Assembly: GCF_964340395.1 (NCBI RefSeq)
Contig: NC_135566.1
Coordinates: 14,038,501 to 14,102,500, forward strand
Direction: 5' to 3'
DNA length: 64,000 nt
Source of the DNA: Glandiceps talaboti
Lineage: Eukaryota > Hemichordata > Enteropneusta > Spengelidae
This document shows positions 30,801 through 58,037 of this stretch, in pieces. Below the pieces are notes generated by a model. That model was given only the letters and a program-made list of their open reading frames with translations. It ran no database searches and was not told the origin of the DNA. Each line of letters starts with the position of its first letter. The stretch's first letter is position 1. Both the position numbers and the translations under genes were made by a program.

Positions 30801-33800
30801 TACAAGTGCCAATATTATTACTTAAAACGTGATGAGATGTCGTCCTATGAAGTTGCAGTGGCCCACTTAAAGGCCTATGTTTCAATCCCAGGTTCTTACA
30901 TTAGTGTTATATTATCAATCACGTTGTAAATGGTCTAGTTGTAGAAATGATACAAGTGTCAATATTGTTACTTAAAACGTGATGAGATGTCGTCCTATGA
31001 AGTTGCAGCGTTCCACTTAAAGGCCTATGCTTCAATCCCGGGTTCTCACATTAGTGTTATATTATCAGTCATGTTGTGAATGATCTAGTTGTAGAAATGA
31101 TACAAGTGCCAATATTATTACCTAACTATGAAGTTGCAGTGTTCCTCTTAAAGTATTTCAATCCCAGGTTCTTGCATTATTGTTATCAGTGTTACCATAC
31201 GAATTGCATAAGATCGTTCTTTCGTTCTAGATTAACTTTTCTATAGATTTGTCGGACAAATGTTTTCTATTCACACTGGGCTTTTAAAATGAGGAATATA
31301 CATCGCTCATAGAATAGACAGTGAGCCATTGGATAGCGTGTTGTGAGCTGTAGGGTATAGTGTATGACTTCATTTTGCCATCAGCTGTTGAAAATTGCTG
31401 TAAATTATATGATATTAATATGATAAATCACTTTGTGATCATTGATATTTGTCTACTCTCCTCCAGACTTGCTGAAAGACAGACAGTACCAAGTGGTGCA
31501 AATGGAGAAACCACTCTCACTTTTAACAAGTTTGAAGAGAAAAGAAAGCAGCACCAAGCGCCAAAGACTAAGACAGTCAAAACATTCTTCAAGAAAGGTG
31601 CACCAAACAAGGGTAGGTAACACAGGTTATGAGTGATATCTGTAAAAAAAAAAAAAAATGACATCATGCAACCATTTTAGCTACCCTGGTACTAGTATTT
31701 GATCCAGAACATACAAACTGACATGGCAAATGCAAAAATATTTTGATGGACATGTTTAAAGTAGTGTATATGCCTCGATGACCAATTCTTTGATATCATT
31801 TTAATTTCTTGAATCTCTCCAATGTTTGCCATATGAAAGCTTTTTCCTGATCATTTATACTGTACATTGTAAGATATGCAGTGATCAGTGAAACAAAGAG
31901 ACAGGCAGGCAGACAGACAGACAGATTGCTAATAAGCCATTCAAATGATGTGTTTATTCACTCCTAACAGAAGGTCCACATCCATGGACTGGACAAAGAC
32001 AGCCTAGTATTGAATCTCAGAAAGCTGCCAGTGATTTCACCGAGTTTCTGAAAGCCTTAAAGAAACCTGCTGCCCAGGACATATCCAAACAATGCAGAGC
32101 TGTCATAGAAAAACTCCATGAACAATATGATTTACCAATAGAGGAACAGTCAGAATTAGTCCAAGATTTTTATCAGAACATGAGTGAAAGATTACAGGCA
32201 CATCCGTCTTTCAAAGGTAAGTGATATTCAAATTTGAAGATTTTGTTAGCTAAGAATGACAGTTATGTCCTGAAAACAAGTCTCCCAAGTTTGTCAATTC
32301 TCCCATTCAAGTGTCCAACACGAAACAAATTGAAAAGGTTCTTTTAAAGACCATGGCTGCATTGTTTTCAAATGTTTTGTATTTTATTTCAGTTTTGTTA
32401 ATTTTTCCTTTCAAGGATCCAACACAGAGCAATGGCAAGGTTTATGAGACCATTCTTTCGGGTTCGAGGCCTTTGTGTCATCATTTTGAAATGTTTAGCA
32501 TTGTATCCCAATTTTTGTCAATTATTACCTTCAAGGGTCCAACACAGAGCAATGAAACAGTTTTGGAGACCGTTTTGCATCATTTTGATTTTCAAATATA
32601 TTGAGTTATAGCCTAAGTTTTGTTTGATCCAGCACAGAACAGAGTGGAAAAGTTCTAGATGCCATTGTTGTGTCGCTTTCAACTATTTTATGTTATATCC
32701 CAAGTTTTGTCAATTCTTACTTCCAAGAGTCCTACAAAGAACAGAATGAAAAAGTTCTCGAGACTGTTTTGCATCATTTTCAAATATTTTGTGTTATATT
32801 CCAAGTTTTTGTTTTTTCTATTTTTCAGGATCCAACGCAGAACAGAATGAAAAGATGATGGAGAACATGGAAAAGTTCATCATGACAAGATTATACAAGA
32901 CTGTTTTCTGTCCTCCGTTCTGTGATGATGAACAAAAAGACCTTGCTATTCAGAACAGAATACGAAGGCTACACTGGATCAGTGCTGAAATGATCGATGC
33001 TGATATAGATGAGAAGAACCCAGAAGTTGTAGACTACATTGAAAAAGCTCAAACAGGTGAGCAGGAGATCAGCTTCTACAAAACTTGAACTGAAATAAAG
33101 CATTTTGACTTTGTACCACAATTGCTGTGACACTATAATTCACTGTAATCAGTGTGCTATGCCTTAGCTGAAAAGAATGTTAATGAATTGTTTACGTTAG
33201 AACATACATGTATTTGTAAATTAAAGCAATTGAAACAGTATACTTTTGTACTTTTTGCTTTGATTTCTGTCTTTATGTTACAGTATATTTATTTTATAAG
33301 CTTGAGAAGAAATTAGTGAGAAAAGAGAACTTCAGTTTTTGTGTTCTTCATTTCCAGATATCATGAAAACAAACTCATGCGCCTCATATTTTTATTTTCA
33401 GATATTATTGAAATGAACTCGAAACGAGCTCCGGTTGATAAGTTAGAATGTATTGTCCGATGTAGTAAAAATATCTTCAGTGTGCTGCGTGTATCTAAAG
33501 GACAACCTGCCAGTGCCGATGACTTCTTACCAGTTCTCATATACATTATACTGAAAGCCAACCCACCACAGTTGCATTCAAATATCCAGTATATCACCAG
33601 GTTTAGTAATCCTAATAAATTAATGCAAGGAGAGGCTGGTTATTATTTCACAAATCTGGTAAGTCTATATAACGTAAAATCCACCTCGAAAACAAACTGT
33701 TTCAATAATGCTATGTATACTAATCATGGAAGCACTAAGATTCATATGTAAGATCTCTTCTGCCACTTTTGATTAAGAAACAGACTTGTTTCGAACAAAT

Positions 33801-43243: not shown

Positions 43244-43422
43244 ATGTGTCTTTTATTTCTGAAACTGGATCCTAATCCTCCCTCCGATGGTTACAAATTG
43301 ATTTTAGCGTCAAATAGAGATGAAACATTAGACCGTCCAACAAAACCAGCTGATTGGTGGGTAGATAACTCCAATATTCTGAGTGGTAAGTATAGTGCCT
43401 GCCATCTGTAGTTAAGTAGTGT

Positions 43423-43453
<31 letters not shown>

Positions 43454-46400
43454 GGTTACTTCTTAAAAAGTTTTACCACATCATAAAACTCATTACAACA
43501 TCTGAAATACACCAGGTGACATTATAATGATAATACATATTTGCATGTGTTTTTGAAAAGATAGACTAAGCATTAAAATTTTTTTTTTTTTTAAATGTCA
43601 GAACAATCTTCCAGAATTCAAAGGTTGAAATCTTTATACCTACATAGTATGTGCAATATTTGTTGTTGTTGGTGAAAATGATAACAAACTGGTTTTCATC
43701 GCAATGTGAGAAACATCAAAGTTTGCAGTGTGATGAGAATTTGCTGTGTGTTTAGCTAGTGGCATCAATCAGTCAGAGAATTTCTAGAGCTCCTGTATCC
43801 AATATGAAGTATATCTGTGTACAGCTCTGAACTTTAAAAGTTCAGAGCTGTACACTGATATATTGAAAACTTTCACGAATAAGTATGTTTTAGGCATTGA
43901 CTGTGGGTGTTTGTCGAAAGCTCCAGCGGCCATTTGTTCCAAAGACGCAGTGCAGCAAGTGAGATAGTACGGCCACCAAAAGAATTAAGTCTTTAATTGG
44001 ATTCAAACTGTAAATGTTTGTCCGTTGACCAAGTGTGCGGAGATTAGGCTTTTCATGGAGAGTGTCTGTGATACATGTATTAAGTAAGGTGGTGAAAGAC
44101 CATGCAATACTTTATAGGTGGTCAGGAGAACATTGTAATCAATTCTGTAGTGTACTGGCATGTCAAAATTGGCTTAGAAGACACACTGCATTGTATATAT
44201 ATCTTTACAATCTTATAGTTGAAACGTTGTTCTCATGTTGTTTGAGGGTCTTGAAATGTTGTTCTCTTCTTTGAGTCTATGAGTGTAAAAGGATGAATCA
44301 TACAGAAAGTAGCTAACATACTGTATTATTAATTTTGGATTCCTGATTTCTGTCATCATTTTTTCCAGGTTTGGATCAAACACAAGGCAAGGTAGGGGGA
44401 ACGTGGCTTGGGATAACACGGACTGGGAAATTTGCAACATTGTTGAATATTCTAAGTGATGTTGTAGATCCTAATGCCAAGGGAAGAGGTAAGACATTCG
44501 TGTCTCATTACTGTGATGTTAATATCGTGTACACAATTGTGTTTTATCTGACGATCAACAAGTTGTGCTGAGATAATTGGTTGCTTAATTTCGGTCGTTA
44601 GTATACAAACAGTGACTCTAGATGTAGACAAAGCAGCTGTTGGACGCATAGTGAATTTCATTATGCTCATCACGAACTCATTTTCCGAGTGAGTTATTTT
44701 CGGCCAATACTGTTACATGTTGTGGAAAATCCTTAAATCCCAGGTCCTTAAATGATTACTTCGGGATCCATAGGCAAATCAATGCAACAGGCAGTTTACT
44801 TGGTACATAAGTGGCTTAAACTGTAAGATATGTCGTGTCGTTCTGCTCTCACCAACTGGGATTTGACCGATGTCTGAGGGCGCCCCAGCACGGTGTATCT
44901 TACAGACTAACAATTCGCAGAGCTATTCTCAAAATGAGATTGAGCAACACATTATATCACCAAAGATACTGTTATGATTAGCTGAATAATATGAAGTAGA
45001 TTTTTTGATTCCATCAATTCAGTGTTGTAAGTTTGTTTTTACATGTTCTTTTTTTTCATTTCTTAGGTTCACTGATTTCCAATTTTTTGAAGGGTAACGA
45101 CGAAAGTCTATCATATTTACAACAAGTGTCTTCAGAGGGTGAATTATATAATGCATTTAATCTGTTAGTGTGTGATCTTACAAGGTAATGTCAGTGATAT
45201 TACGGATCTAGACAATATCAAATATCATGTCATCCTTATCAAACAAGATCATGTCATATTACATTGTGGATTGTCATTATCAACCAAGGTCATGTCATAT
45301 CAACATTGTAGATTGTCATTATCAAACAAGATCAAGGTTTGGAAATTGGGTCTGTGAACTTAATACACAATAACTTAATGCTGGCTGGTCAACGTTACAT
45401 CCAACCAGGTTTAGATTCTCATGGTAGGATTTAGCTTTAATTTCAACATAGAAATTCCTCATTTTTAACATCACCTGTTTTTCTTTCTGTCGCTGTAACA
45501 GGATGAATTCACAGTCGTCACTTGGTTACTATAGCAACAAGACTGGCAAGGATCCAGAATTATTAAGTCCAGGTAATATGCATATCAAAAAACAAAAGAA
45601 ACACTTTGAAAAGTAGGACTAGGGAGAAACTTAAGTTACAAAGAAAGAAGTAGGGTTGAAATACACTGTAGTTCACTGGCGTGTAGATCAGTTAGGTAAT
45701 TTGACACCTGAGTCATTTCCAAATTACACCATCAGAGGGCAGTATTCACTGTAATGTTTGTACAACATCATTAAATGGTCATTTTACGAAACTCTATCTT
45801 TCAGCTGAAAACATTGTTTGTCATATTACTGCAAAAATGATACTGTAAGTTTTTAATCGTAAATACTTTCACCATAACAGGAGATAATTTCACCTAAAAT
45901 GTAAACAATGATATTGTGCCACTTCCAGGAATTCATGGCCTATGCAATTCAACTATAGACAAACCATGGAAGAAATGTGTGATTGGTAAAGATAGATTTA
46001 CTGATATAGTGAATGGCGCCACCATAGGTGATAAAGAGAAATTAATGGATCACTTAGTTGAGCTTATGAGTGACCAAACTCCGTAAGTACCAGTAATCCT
46101 TTGTATGGATGACTTTGTGCATAACTATAGATGAGTTTCATCTCTGGAAGCGACTGCTATCGAAAAAAATGGAATAAAAGTGATACCGTTACTTAAAAAT
46201 TTATCTCATTTCTAATTCTACCAAACTAACAGCTATACTATGGCAGCTACTCATGATTTTTGCATAATGAAATATGCAAATTAACAGCTTTCTGCATAAT
46301 AAAGTATGCAAATTAACATTTCTGCATAATAACATATGCAAATTAACATATTTCTGCATAGCAAAATATGCAAATTAATGTCTTTCTGCATAATAAAGTA

Positions 46401-48119
46401 TGCAAATTAACATTTCTACTTTAAAAAAATATGCAAACTAACATCTTTCTACATAGTAAAATATGCAAATTAATATCTCTGCATAGTAAAGTATGCAACT
46501 GACAAAGTCTAACACTAGATGGCACTGTTTGTTGTGAAGAGCACTTCTCTTTGTATTTGTGTTAAAATGAGCACCTCTCTCTCAATCACCAGACACCCAG
46601 ACCAGGCCATAGGTCAAATGTGTGCTGGAAGTCTTGAGCCAAAACTTCAAGAGGATAGAAGTGCAATATATGTTCACTCCCCTGGTAGTAACTATGGCAC
46701 AAGGTGATTTAGTCATTTTATCCATCGAACTGACACCCCTGTGAATAATAGATTATCTGCTGTGAAAACAAAACTTTGGGATGAACCATTACATTATATG
46801 GGATATCAACCCAACAAAATGCAGAAAATTTCATAGGGAAATATCTTTAGAATTGATTTCATCCAACATAAGGAAAAGTTCACCCTAGAAGTCTTGTTTC
46901 ATGGCAGAAACCATTATTATCAAAGGGGGTTACCATATCGCTGAAACTTATCTTGGTCTATACACCAGGTACAGTGACACAAGGCCAAAGGAACAAAATG
47001 GCGCCTTACCTGATTTAGCAGTGCAAGGCCTTGGAAAAATCCTAGTCAGGTTACCAAATTATGGAACAAGGTAGTGTTATATCGAACTTGTACTCAGCTT
47101 TGACCTTTCAACTTTGTACCTGACTTTTATAGTTCTCAACTTTGACCTTTCAACTTTTTTCCTGACTTTTATAGTTCTCAACTTGACCTTTCACCCTTGT
47201 ACCTGACAGTTATAGTACCCAACTCTGACCTTTTTTCTATTTCATCAACGCGGATGTAGAAAACATTAAAATATTTTGGTAAAGAAGTGCATTAAAATAT
47301 TTTTTTTAATACAAAGTTAGAAAATAATTATAGCTTGTTTTATATCAGACAATTTTAAAGAAATTTAAAAAATTGTTTGAATTTAGTGGACTTCATAAAT
47401 TGATTATGTTTTCTGTCACCTGACTTGAATAAAGAGAGAACGTATATTCTGTGTTATATTGTTATATTGAAATTTCAGGTCGAACCAGTTTCTATGGTAA
47501 TAATTTTGAGCTGAAAATGATTAAAAGATCTATGAGAAATTTATCTGTAAAAGAGGCAAAACCCCAGAGTTTCTGTCACAATTTTAATGAGATTTAGGTA
47601 AAAGTGTACAACGTTTATGCACAGGAAGAGATATATGGAATTATCTTTGTCCTGAAAGTGCTAACTTAAGACTGGGCAGAATTCTATGATTGATTAAAAC
47701 AGACATTTTAATGACTGGGTGGGCGGATTCGTTTGGATTTGAAATTTTTTACCAGCTCCTCGGCCAGCTGTTGGGTAAAGAGATTTTCAGATTGAAACCC
47801 AATTGAAAGCCTTTAGACTAAAGTATACTGTGCCACACCGACAGACAAATCATGTGACAGTCATGTGACAGGGAAAGTTTTCATAATGAATGCGTCAGAA
47901 AAGTATGATTTGTTTACTGTGTCCAATATCCATCAAACTTTTTTGTAAACTTTGATAAATTCATGTAGCTGTTTATTTTTCAGGACACACACAATTATCT
48001 TGGTGGATGCATCTAACAAAGTTACTTATTTGGAAAAAACCCTGACTGAACCGATTGATGAGAAGAACTTTCAGTGGACAACAAATATGTACAATTTTGA
48101 TATACAAAATAACCAATGA
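43244..48119 (+). CDS. TANGO2: TANGO2 (NRDE domain protein)
   Basis: TANGO2 belongs to the NRDE family, which has an Ntn-hydrolase-like fold; it is linked to haem trafficking, mitochondrial lipid homeostasis and Golgi organisation. Exons: 43244-43385, 44369-44488, 45067-45184, 45502-45572, 45929-46082, then 46593-46703 and/or 46969-47070, then 47984-48119. All splice phases agree; the acceptor six bases before the ATG implies an upstream untranslated exon. With the first version of exon 6 the protein has 283 residues, with the second 280 (human 276). It begins MCLLFLKLDP, keeping the near-terminal Cys of the family, then has LILASNRDE (the NRDE name motif), GGTWLGITRTGKFATLLN, LYNAFNLLVCDL and YGTRTHTIILVD. 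It ends QNNQ then TGA at 48117-48119. Introns carry a LINE remnant, a MITE and several minisatellites. Confidence 0.95.
43421..43456. repeat. (GT)n followed by a G homopolymer
   Basis: A GT run passes directly into about 18-20 G, just inside TANGO2 intron 1. One of many long G or C tracts in this window. Confidence 0.97.
43811..43861. repeat. 51-bp near-perfect palindrome
   Basis: ATATCTGTGTACAGC on the left mirrors GCTGTACACTGATAT on the right, with a fully paired core CTCTGAACTTT/AAAGTTCAGAG. Almost no loop remains, so it could extrude as a cruciform. It sits about 45 bases from the LINE remnant. Confidence 0.85.
43905..44175 (-). pseudogene. LINE reverse-transcriptase C-terminal remnant
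   Basis: On the minus strand one reads YNVLLTTYKVLHGLSPPYL and, further on, GRTISLAALRLWNKWPLELS. These are the typical C-terminal blocks of L2/CR1-like non-LTR reverse transcriptases (…Y K.L.G..P.YL… and …A.RLWN.LP…). A gap and frame changes lie between them. It is an inactive fragment in TANGO2 intron 1. Confidence 0.8.
44817..44909. mobile_element. MITE copy, CTGTAAG family
   Basis: Inverted ends AAACTGTAAGATATGTCGTG and CACGGTGTATCTTACAGACT and the shared GAGGGCGCCCC body. TANGO2 intron 2. Confidence 0.85.
45226..45335. repeat. Short tandem duplication in TANGO2 intron 3
   Basis: About two units of TTATCAAACAAGATCATGTC plus ATA...CATTGTGGATTGTCA, beginning 40 bases after the exon 3 donor. 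Confidence 0.8.
46250..46500. repeat. Minisatellite, unit about 31 bases, carrying ATGCAAAT
   Basis: About eight units of TCTGCATAATAAAGTATGC plus AAATTAACATT. Most contain the octamer ATGCAAAT, the POU-factor site. It ends about 90 bases before TANGO2 exon 6a. Confidence 0.92.
46593..46703 (+). CDS. TANGO2: TANGO2 exon 6, version a
   Basis: This 111-base exon (phase 2 in, phase 2 out) begins HPDQAIGQMCAG and ends SAIYVHSPGSNYGTR. It follows a good pyrimidine tract, CTCTCTCTCAATCACCAG, and has a weak donor, GTGATT. It corresponds to the human segment that ends in PGYGTR and is the full-length match of the two versions. Confidence 0.88.
46969..47070 (+). CDS. TANGO2: TANGO2 exon 6, version b (alternative)
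   Basis: This 102-base exon has the same phases as version a. It begins YSDTRPKEQNGALPDLAV and ends KILVRLPNYGTR. Acceptor CTATACACCAG, donor GTAGTG. It encodes the same part of the fold as version a and is followed by the same downstream exon, so the two look like mutually exclusive alternatives. The frame is intact and the key NYGTR ending is kept, which argues against a dead duplicate. Confidence 0.75.
47084..47235. repeat. Minisatellite, unit about 45 bases, after TANGO2 exon 6b
   Basis: Three to four imperfect units of CTCAACTTTGACCTTTC, AACTTTGTACCTGAC and TTTTATAGTT. It begins 14 bases after the exon 6b donor. Confidence 0.88.
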
Positions 48120-48127
48120 AAGTTTCT

Positions 48128-48368
48128 GATTGGTTAGACTACATGACATAGAAAGGAGAGCTTGTCTGATTGGATGGTTTAGGGATGACATCATAGACAG
48201 GAGAGCTTTTTTGATTGGATGGTTTAGGGATGACATCATAGACAGGAGAGCTTGTCTGATTGGATAGCAGGAATGACATCATAGCCAGGGAGACTTGTCT
48301 GATTGGATAACAGGAATGACATCATAGGCTGTGAGATTTGTCTGATGTGATTGGCTAGCAGGGATGAC
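48128..48368. repeat. Minisatellite, unit about 40-47 bases, in the TANGO2 3' UTR
   Basis: About five units of GACAGGAGAGCTTGTCTG, ATTGGATGG and GATGACATCATA, starting within 10-15 bases of the stop codon, so very likely transcribed in the 3' UTR. Confidence 0.92.
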
Positions 48369-53273: not shown

Positions 53274-56200
53274 TCACGCTCTACTCTCCTTCAATTGTTC
53301 TAAGTGCGGCGCAAGTTCTTCCGTCGCACTCGTATGTGAAAAATCTACACTTGATTTTGTGTCGTTCTCACTTGTTTGTACTTCCTCCCCATTGTCTCCA
53401 CTTTTAGTGTCTGTATTTTCACTATTTTCAACAACTTCCTCCTCCTCCTCCTCCTCCTCCTCCTCACCCTCACTATGTCCAGGGTTGATTGTGATTCGAA
53501 TCTCTTGCGATCCTGATTTGCTATGGTAACCGCTTTCGCTGTTGTTCCCATTGAAGCCATTTTCAAGATCATGGTGGTCGTCACCACCACCATCACCATC
53601 AACAAGTTCATTATTACCCTGTTCCCCACTAGGGATATTTCTCCCATCATACTTTTCACTATCGCTACCATGTTCCCCATCTTCCCCCTCCCTATCAGCC
53701 TGGGCATCTCTCACAGAGGATGCTATGTCTAAGGGTATTGTCTCATGTATACTGCCATTGACAGGCACACAATCTGGCGGCTTTCCCAGCCACACCCAAT
53801 CATGTGCATTTGCAACTGTTCTTCCATCGTTGGGAAGTCTTTTACTTTTGTAACGAGCGGCAAATAAAATACAGTTTACTAGAAACACAATGATAGCTAT
53901 GCAGAAGATTCCAAGCAAGGCATACATGCCGATTTCTAACTCGGACAGCTTGGTAGTTTCTTGCGGAAGGGTCCGTTCATCTGCTGGCTCATAATCTGAT
54001 TCATTCCCCTCATCTTCTTCTCCATTTGATATTTCCACTGGAATGTTATTTGACACAGGACCATCATACATAGCAGCTTTCTCTTTCTCCTCATCCTCCT
54101 CACCGTCCGCATAACCATCTTGTACAGAATAAGGCTCTGTATGCAGAATTCCCGGATCGAAGCCGTTCCTGGTTTTGTTCATGATCGTGTACCTTCCATT
54201 GGCGGTGAATTCCACGTTCACATACAGAATAGTGGCTTTGAGCTCCTTGGCGGGTTTGTTTGGTTTGTTTGGTTTCTGGCAAGCTTCCGGCAATTTCAAC
54301 TTCAGCAAGACTCCGGTGGTTCCTTCGGCAAGTGCAATAAGTCCTGGTGGATGATCCAAGGGACTGGGTGCAACAATATTATCAAAGCTAGTCATCTCGA
54401 TACTGTATTCCATCATGTCGGCATTCAATAGAGACATTGTCTTACCGTCGTCAAAGGACAGGGTGATATCAATGAACCCTTTCTGTAATAAAAAATACGA
54501 CAAAATGATCAGCGGTTTTTTGGGGGCAATTTTTCGAGAAAATAAATGTTTTTATTCACAAGATAACAAGTAATTGCTAAATGTCCTCTCGGTATGATGT
54601 ACAAACTTAGTTATTTGATGGTCATTACTTCTAATAGTAAATTCAGTTTTTACCTCCACACTTGAAATTTGTTGCCGAAAAACCAAAATAAAACTAACCA
54701 AAATTTACCAGGCACTTTATAAATGAGTAAATAGTAACATTGGTAAATTACCAACATGTAAAAATAACTTTAAATTTGCACTTATTATGTTAACAACAAA
54801 GTGGAAAACAATACCTGATTTTCTGCGAAGAGCGCCCTCTGTGCCACAGCTTTGGCTACTATTACGTCTTTCTGTGCTGGGTAATTTTTAGTTGACAAGG
54901 CCAGTCCTGTGACTAGATTGACTTGTAAGTCAATAACAGACACTTTGTCACTGGCCACAGTCAGTTCTTTGATACCAAGGATATCATTAGTATTTGGTGC
55001 CAAAACCTGAAAAAAGTACGAAATTATAACGTTACACATTAGACTGCCATAAATATTTACAAACAATGAAATATTTTTACAATATCCCATTACATCTCCA
55101 AAGTGCTAATTCCCTTCAAACTTTCTAATATCAAGTATTTGGACAGCTTGTAGATAAAAATCTTTAAATTTCCTAGGATTTGTGGCTGCCTGAAAAATAC
55201 ACCTGCCACATATCAGACCTTGAACAAACAGAACCTGTTACAAACAGGGAAAGTAAACAATTGAATTGGCACAGAGCATGTTGGAACAGTATAGGGCTGG
55301 TCTTACATTTCATGGTTTGATAAGAACAGTTTTATGGCCTCTTTATGTGTACATGAAATGCCAGGGGAACTTCAAATTTGTTTGTAAATGTGAACTATTA
55401 TGTAAAATAAGTGAACTGTTATGTAAAGAGGTCATACAACTGTTCTCATAAAATGATGAAATGTAATATAAGCCTCTGTACTTCCAACATGCTGTGCCAA
55501 GTTGAATAGCCCCCCCCCCCCCCCCTGTGTCAGTACAATTATAACGAAATACGGATAACGAACTGAATTATTTGTGCCTATGAGGTTTGACTGTATTCAC
55601 ATTATACAACTAATTTGGATCACAATATTAAAATAACAGTTTTGTCTCTTATTTAGCTTACCTCTACGTTTGTGGTTCCTGGGAAGAGGCCAATCACTTG
55701 GTGGCCATGGATACCAGCTATCTTCTTATCAGCGACCTTCATTTGACCTTGAATGAGATGAGTTACTCTCTGCATCAGAGAGTCACTGAACAGGTACTTT
55801 CGGTGTCCTGTGTTTTCATCAGGGGCGTTGAAACGTGTGTATACGTCCACCATAGCGTCCTGATGACGCAGGTGACATCGGTTACGTTCGTGTTCACGCC
55901 CAGTGTCTTCTTTCAGTAAAGATGTCGGGTTGCTGTAGTCAGTGTTCCTGGGATATCTAATAATGCAATCAAGAAGACAGAGAAATGAAACAAACAACAA
56001 ACACACAAAAGGTCAAAGTTCACAAACGATGGATCTCACTGCTCCACACTGTTGAGCAAGTAATTAATAAAATTTTCTTACAGATTATATTTGTCATTTC
56101 AGTGAGATGTATACTTTTGATTTTCAACATGACAATAGATACATCTTTAGACTTTGATATTTTTTAGACTGTCGTTATTTTGCATTCACATTTGTGTGAT

Positions 56201-56282
56201 AAAGGCTTGGTTGTGTTACGAAACTCAATAACACATCGATTTGATATTGTGGACTGTTACAAACTATGAGCCCTCTCCTATT

Positions 56283-56331
<49 letters not shown>

Positions 56332-58037
56332 GGCACAAACGTAAGTCCTCTTGCACTTCCCATTCACAAATCTCCTCATCCAACTCCCAATTACAGACAG
56401 AGACAGACCAAACAACAAGTGCATATAACAGCATGGAAGAGAGAGAGAAAGTGTCATTCAGTTAGTTAGGTAGTTCAACACACAGAACTGCAGTACAACA
56501 ACATTATAAACATCTATACCTTTCCATCCACACTGTCTCAGGAACTTTCCAACTCTTGATAAGACTCAGTTTATCATCAGTTAGAGTTATAGTCAGTGGT
56601 AATTCTGGTATCCACACATTAAAAGTGACAGCCTTAGTGAAACCATCATAATGAACCATAATGTTGATATCTACAGCGCCATCTACCTCTGTACCATCTA
56701 GGTAAACCATTGTGCAATCCTCAGCTACCTGCAGCCAGAACAAAAACATAAATATTTTATTAAAATTTATTAAATTTAAGAATGTGCACAAACAATTTTT
56801 ACTCCCTCAAGTGCCATCTGTAGTTGTGAACAAAACCATTTGACTGAATTCAAGCCTACTACCAAAACTGTCGTTTCTTTGTCTGTAAGGGCAACAAATA
56901 ATTGTTTGGTTTGGGTATAACTTGCCCAAACCTAGTTTTTGACTGCCGATCCTCAACTTTTTTTTACGTAATTTGAAAAAAAAATTGAAAATTTGAATTT
57001 TTTTTTGAAAGAGTTGAGTGAGAAGTAGGGAGATTTGATGACATGATCAAATCAACATGGCAGAAGTTGTCTGCATATCATATGCAAACACATATCAATG
57101 AGAAATGTCTGTCGATATCTGTGTACATTATAACATCCTGAACCAGACCCCCCAAAAATAAAAAAATAAAAATAAAATAAAGAGTGGTCTATACTAATAT
57201 CGGTTGAACTAAGTACCTTCAGTATGGTTGGGTTAACTGACACACAGTGCGCTCTGTTGGTGACATCTTCGACACCACTACCGTAACCAACGGCAAATAC
57301 ACTCAATGGGTACGTCACCACTCTACCATTCAACAAGGCCGAGTTGACTAGATCTTTATACTGAAATAAACAAACAAAATAAAAATCAACTTCCATTATA
57401 ATTTCAATACACACTTTCCTTTAATATATTGCTAAATATGAAATAAATGATTCTATTTCATAATCAACACTTATTTTTCGACCAGAAGCTACCATTTTAA
57501 GGCTCAGTGGCATGGATTTGGGTCAGGCCTTACATCACATATAAACACAGGGCATGGTTGTCTGTACTTTCCTGTTTCAATACACATCTTCAAACAATAG
57601 AGGGCGCTGTACAACAGTAAAGTGAGATATTTTCACTACCAGAAAATTGTGTGATTTTTCTGTCTTTAGCTAGTTCTCAAAGACTAATTTTTAGTAATTA
57701 CTAGACTGGTACATGTACATTATGTTCATGTACCAAAAAAAGGCGCTTTAGTTACTAGTTCTTTTTCAATGAAATAAGTGAAAATAAGACTTTAGTGCAA
57801 ATTTACAGATTTTCAGTAGTTCCTTAACTCCAAAAGGTCAAACTTACTTTTCTGAGAGGCACCAATGCTTCAATCATTCCTGTGTTGACTGCAAATTCTG
57901 ACGTTGTCCTCACATTGCGTAATTCCGTTCCTATTTCATAGTCTATTCGCCAACTGATGTGTACAGAGTCAGGACTATCAGCAGTGGAATTATTCACCTC
58001 AAACTCAAACATACAAATTGTTGCCAAATTTTCAGAC
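53274..58037 (-). CDS. TMEM132: TMEM132 family transmembrane protein (3' part; 5' exons outside window)
   Basis: Single-pass cell-surface proteins with immunoglobulin-like and cohesin-like extracellular domains, thought to link adhesion to the actin cytoskeleton. Exons in transcript order: 57848-58037, 57217-57360, 56520-56728, 55662-55956, 54815-55006, 53274-54482; phases agree (start phase 2, then 0,0,2,0,0). They give 745 residues plus stop. Family landmarks are NSALLNGRVVTYPLSVFAV, the block CTMVYLDGTEVDG...VTFNVWIPELPLTI, SWKVPE, AGIHGHQVIGLFPGTT, the block NDILGIKELTV...DLQVNLVTGLAL, the membrane helix after LELEIGMYALLGIFC (53865-53940) and the cytoplasmic HDWVWLGKP (53785-53810). The tail of about 190 residues is very acidic with a run of Glu (53442-53475). 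The N-terminal signal peptide and first domains are not found in 58038-64000. I do not assign a vertebrate paralogue; invertebrates usually have one gene. Confidence 0.94.
55190..55515. mobile_element. Fold-back element A2, related to 48369-48739
   Basis: It shares TTTGATAAGAACAGTTTTATG, CATGTACAC-type blocks and ACCTGCCACATATCAGACC with A1. The arms fold on each other as in A1; the right end is cut by a C homopolymer (55508-55526). TMEM132 intron. Confidence 0.8.
56287..56330. repeat. (CA)n microsatellite
   Basis: A pure CA run in a TMEM132 intron. Confidence 0.98.

Follow-up and report, generated by a model that had tools for sequence, protein, structure and literature searches.

The TANGO2 gene of Glandiceps talaboti carries two versions of one internal exon, A and B, and we propose, with a probability of roughly 0.7, that these are a tandem duplicate of the exon covering c.606-710 in human, that one or the other is spliced into the transcript, and that the resulting protein forms differ in the acyl derivative which they bind or cleave. 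As far as the sequence itself is concerned, the pair is real, and it is most likely that it derives from tandem exon duplication and that both copies are under selection. We propose a series of steps in which a single exon, the equivalent of the human one, would have been duplicated in tandem to give A and B, and in which the splicing machinery would most likely pick either A or B, yielding two TANGO2 proteins of 283 and 280 residues. The proposed catalytic core and the targeting motif would be common to both proteins, which would differ in the alpha-6 helix and the strand that follows it. The ligand and the chemistry of the disease gene TANGO2 are debated, with heme trafficking, binding of acyl-CoA and a cysteine Ntn-hydrolase as the contending views, and the interest of the pair lies in its location, in the pocket helix of such a protein. 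If the proposal is true, the two isoforms constitute a natural swap experiment, the comparison of which would reveal the selectivity of the pocket and would implicate the alpha-6 helix as a tuner of ligand choice.

The window, that is the whole 64-kb stretch of DNA that was analysed, contains a TANGO2 gene on the + strand at 43244-48119, with eight coding exons. Exon 1 (43244..43385), which holds the start codon, Cys2 and the LIL and NRDE motifs, and exon 2 (44369..44488) were placed by translation and by their match to the family profile PF05742; exons 3 (45067..45184) and 4 (45502..45572) were placed by translation and alignment to human. Exon 5 (45929..46082) encodes Asn157 and Lys166, matches PF05742, and ends in CC immediately before the alternative exons A (46593..46703) and B (46969..47070). 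The last coding exon (47984..48119) contains the stop codon and is aligned to human, its match to PF05742 on its own being weak (15.3 bits, E 0.022). Upstream of TANGO2 lie exons of a VPS9-domain gene (32750-33751, + strand; PF02204, E 1.6e-28; DUF5601, E 8e-06), and downstream lie exons of a TMEM132-family gene (53274-56806, - strand; PF15706, PF16070). In the 590-Mb assembly, among the best candidates, which were scored, a TANGO2 profile matched only three exons of the 43244-48119 locus, and exon A and exon B each matched one place, namely itself. The same genome searches, again with the best candidates scored, found no other TANGO2 copy, nor any retrocopy from which the spliced form could be read.

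The original prediction gave the coordinates and lengths of the two exons exactly: A has 111 bases and B has 102, each preceded by AG and followed by GT. Its further claims, that both enter and leave in phase 2, that both are open and end in NYGTR, and that the CC at the end of exon 5 gives Pro with either exon, are borne out by the translation, which reads P-HPDQAIGQMCAGSLEPKLQEDRSAIYVHSPGSNYGTR for A and P-YSDTRPKEQNGALPDLAVQGLGKILVRLPNYGTR for B. The last five codons of A and B differ at two synonymous positions and at no amino acid. On both strands of the window, a sequence coding for YG[ST]R and cut at AG or CG before GT occurs at 2 places, the ends of exons A and B, and no third stop-free phase-2/2 exon of 90-129 bases with an AG/GT ending was found in the five of the seven introns that follow the first two. 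Of 100,000 surrogates generated from the intron by a first-order Markov model, 90 contained the YG[ST]R motif and 2 contained a stop-free phase-2/2 exon ending in it. The two exons share 12 of 35 residues with each other, A shares 12 of 35 with human and B shares 10 of 35. The resemblance of A and B in DNA is weak and strongest at the ending, and the case for their homology therefore rests more on position, phase and family match.

The splice sites of the two exons have features of their own. The five constitutive donors read GTAA, from which GTGATT of A and GTAGTG of B both differ, and the acceptor tract of B is interrupted by purines. Donors that differ in this way are common among regulated exons. 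A second in-frame acceptor lies 6 bases into exon B and would move its start to 46975; these tandem in-frame acceptors, CAG GTACAG (46966-46974), would yield two forms that are two residues apart. The surrounding introns contain short repeats. Intron 5 has a tandem array at 46256-46498 of about 7.8 copies with period 32 and the consensus ATTTCTGCATAATAAAATATGCAAATTAAC, for which no second place in the genome was found by a DNA search that skipped simple repeats. A short array with a 42-base unit lies just after exon B (47093-47233), and another, with a unit of 43-45 bases, lies in the presumed TANGO2 3' UTR (48147-48346).

A and B had been said to correspond to a single human segment, and published human variants agree with this. 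Reported variants place one human junction after c.605 (c.605+1, with the transcript not named in the passage; excerpts of PMC8515723) and one before c.711 (c.711-3, with retention of intron 8 written p.R237ins; excerpts of PMC6752277). Arithmetic on these variant names shows that the junctions cut the codons of Ala202 and Arg237 at phase 2, like those of A and B, and that the human exon c.606-710 has 105 bases, against 111 in A and 102 in B. Since the human junctions and the family columns coincide with those of both exons, A and B are best regarded as versions of one ancestral exon.

Profile searches support this assignment from the side of the protein family. Against PF05742 the predicted protein reaches 257.6 bits if it contains A alone and 247.9 if it contains B alone, the curated cut-off being 22.6 bits and positions 1-256 of the 257 in the profile being covered; including both exons gives 256.5 bits and omitting both gives 218.1. 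A form with either exon alone thus stands above the cut-off as a full-length member of the family, and the loss of both costs 30-40 bits. When placed before the last exon (15.3 bits by itself), A adds 25.7 bits and B adds 19.0 bits. Our own whole-protein profile gives 222.7 bits with both exons, 220.6 with A, 215.9 with B and 189.4 with neither. Judged by these scores, A alone or B alone completes the predicted TANGO2 domain, the omission of both damages it, and the scores offer no argument against the inclusion of A and B together. A segment profile built from 15 bacterial proteins and human was run against all six-frame stop-to-stop stretches of at least 15 residues in the 64-kb window; A came out on top with E 0.023 and B followed with E 0.036, the next stretch being at 1.3. 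Based on the bacteria without human, it gave E 0.031 for A, 0.45 for B and 1.1 for the next, and based on human only it put B in second place (E 0.27) and A in sixth (E 4.4), behind an unrelated stretch and not separated from chance. Of 148 genomes searched 31 matched, and 30 of these supplied the 30 bacterial relatives; 15 of the relatives entered the segment profile and the other 15, with a shorter segment, were left out. When bacterial and archaeal genomes were scanned with a pattern, 73 stretches came up, of which 1 was a relative. YGTR is present in 17 of the 30 relatives and YGT in 25, and from these sequences the YGTR ending is judged to be old. Many of the closer bacterial relatives end like LSSIFIxSPxYGTR, to which exon A is more similar than B. 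Against human, the only animal relative compared, the last 33 residues of B align gap-free, and the insertions sit in A.

Three other readings of the pair have to be weighed. That the resemblance is due to chance, and that one of the two is not an exon, is very improbable, even though A and B are only modestly similar in DNA (8 of 1000 shuffled versions of B score as high) and the human-only profile leaves both exons unseparated from chance, because A and B match the same family columns in the right phase within the interval expected for the human exon. It is unlikely that one copy is a fading duplicate which is rarely or never spliced in. The less typical B would be the more likely candidate, as it scores lower than A in Pfam and in the 15-bacteria-based segment and whole-protein profiles, has the donor GTAGTG and has purines in its acceptor tract. 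However, the human-only profile ranks B over A, and A is the copy with insertions, whereas B is gap-free over its last 33 residues. Moreover, the duplication looks old because A and B share only those 12 of 35 residues, and yet B keeps its open frame, its AG and GT, its phase 2/2 and its YGTR, a combination of which the intron surrogates produced 2 in 100,000.

Inclusion of both exons, to give a TANGO2 in which the helix-strand segment occurs twice, is quite unlikely. The frame would be kept in all forms (283 residues with A, 280 with B, 317 with both), and the double form reaches 256.5 bits in Pfam and the highest score of all, 222.7 bits, in our own profile. That profile, however, sees the double form as two matches that overlap at profile positions 204-220, and two YGTR strands would probably compete for one site in the compact alpha-beta-beta-alpha fold. 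Excerpts of PMC5740500 argue that tandem use is unlikely for highly similar exons within secondary structure, although A and B lack such high similarity. For the main reading, we regard the alternative use of A and B as likely and their exclusive use as plausible.

As to how exclusivity might be achieved, enforcement by frame, by steric limits or by a conflict of splice classes finds no support in the lengths and sites, although mutually exclusive exons do not need such mechanical enforcement. Neither the frame (111 and 102 being multiples of three) nor a short intron (265 bases) would enforce it, and no U2/U12 conflict is evident, the introns being GT-AG throughout on inspection of the sites for U12 features by eye. 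In some mutually exclusive exon systems, a docking site and selectors form RNA pairings that compete with each other. On the + strand, a weak candidate docking site lies at 46126..46140 in intron 5 and gives the best ungapped pairing with each of the two later introns. It is accompanied by two weak candidate selectors, one at 46942..46953, 16-27 bases upstream of B and complementary to 46129-46140, and one at 47536..47549, in the intron after B and complementary to 46126-46139. The pairing of the former is equalled in quality by 1 of 40 surrogates (23 of 300 in a larger run) and that of the latter by 17 of 40. The joint score of the shared docking site at 46126-46140, a site chosen post hoc, is reached by 6 of 300 surrogates. 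Whole-intron RNA duplexes are ordinary, with 23, 6 and 41 of 60 surrogates doing as well, and ungapped helices between introns were as good in 1, 18, 17 and 4 of 40 surrogates. Among human clusters of mutually exclusive exons, U2/U12 conflict accounts for 0.79%, steric limits for 9% and lengths that are not multiples of three for 60%, and 484 of 629 clusters are attributed to other regulation (excerpts of PMC5740500).

The position of the segment in the protein bears on what the two forms might do. In its crystal structure, human TANGO2 has a cysteine Ntn-hydrolase-like fold, in which the bent helix alpha-6 (Pro207-Tyr224) is tied to a deeper putative substrate cavity, Tyr216, Tyr224 and Tyr234 belong to the residues that come within 5 A of fatty acids placed by docking, and Cys2, Arg26, Asp27, Asn75, Asn157 and Lys166 are named as catalytic or as counterparts of catalytic residues (excerpts of PMC13044924). 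In the alignment, these last six residues are conserved in Glandiceps talaboti and all lie in constitutive exons; Cys2, NRDE and the other proposed cysteine Ntn-hydrolase residues are identical to human. The LIL element is mitochondrial and NRDE is required for acyl-CoA binding (excerpts of PMC11867700), and both are encoded by constitutive exon 1. The A/B segment corresponds to human residues 202-237, that is alpha-6 and the stretch up to YGTR. At the human positions 209, 216 and 224, which are Ile, Tyr and Tyr, the alignment gives Ile, Leu and Arg in A and Pro, Leu and Leu in B, with the counterpart of 216 in A being Leu or Ser depending on the alignment, which is uncertain inside alpha-6. 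Because the deep acyl pocket that has been proposed is lined by alpha-6 and the next strand, a difference in acyl ligand between the two forms is probable. The original prediction had suggested a difference in ligand or in compartment; the former agrees with where the segment lies in the human structure as published, and the latter finds no support, as the LIL element sits in constitutive exon 1. Exon choice would thus more plausibly alter ligand preference than compartment, since the swap would alter the pocket wall and spare the proposed chemistry and targeting. In its fullest form, which we offer only tentatively, one gene would encode two Ntn-hydrolase-like proteins with an exchangeable pocket helix (the counterpart of Tyr224 being Arg or Leu and that of Ile209 being Ile or Pro), their distinct acyl-ligand preferences being set by regulated exclusive splicing, perhaps through docking of intron 5 with one or the other of two later intron sites.

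The mitochondrial contig of the assembly was also considered. Because its three COX1 matches lie 15,435 bases apart, this contig of 51,222 bases is probably a head-to-tail assembly of the circular genome, and over one length of 15,435 bases its G+C content is 53%. Among 3417 codons in nine genes, the limits of which were set by eye, AAA occurs 2 times, AGA 0 times and AGG 2 times, and ATA stands in COX1 at sites that are isoleucine in other animals. In Balanoglossus, ATA encodes Ile, AAA and AGG are unused, and AGA encodes Ser (excerpts of PMC3121625, Table 3). These features of the code probably point to a hemichordate. The Balanoglossus gene order (excerpts of PMC3121625 and PMC2697986) differs in that here, with genes named by eye, CYTB lies between ATP6 and COX3.

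Alternative C-terminal exons of TANGO2 had been thought unreported, and none were found in the TANGO2 literature, as represented mostly by titles and abstract openings. Likewise, no TANGO2 exon duplication appeared in the titles and abstract openings of the exon-duplication and hemichordate matches listed, and the names TANGO2 and C22orf25 are absent from the main texts of PMC5740500 and PMC9741552. Human TANGO2 has six splice isoforms (excerpts of PMC10042531), or at least six (excerpts of PMC11867700), of which the mainly cytosolic isoform 5 is missing the 60 conserved N-terminal residues that isoforms 1 and 2 have (excerpts of PMC11867700). These have alternative splicing in common with A and B, but the excerpts do not describe a swap of homologous C-terminal exons. 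The human exon c.606-710 (protein structures 8sv7, 9bwa and 9n1s) resembles A and B in its junctions, its phase 2, the segment encoded and its YGTR end, and the remainder of human TANGO2 has the same proposed catalytic residues as the Glandiceps talaboti protein; whereas one version of the exon is present in the human passages and sequence used, Glandiceps talaboti has two. A and B are adjacent, encode the same family segment and share the same phases, as tandem-duplicated exons do. Compared with the tandem-duplicated and mutually exclusive exons of the human surveys (PMC5740500, PMC9741552), they are alike in being neighbouring internal exons of equal phases that encode one segment of a folded domain, and unlike in that their exclusive use is a prediction, their joint inclusion would keep the frame and their similarity is low. 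Tandem-duplicated exons are a known kind, of which A and B would be a new candidate member.
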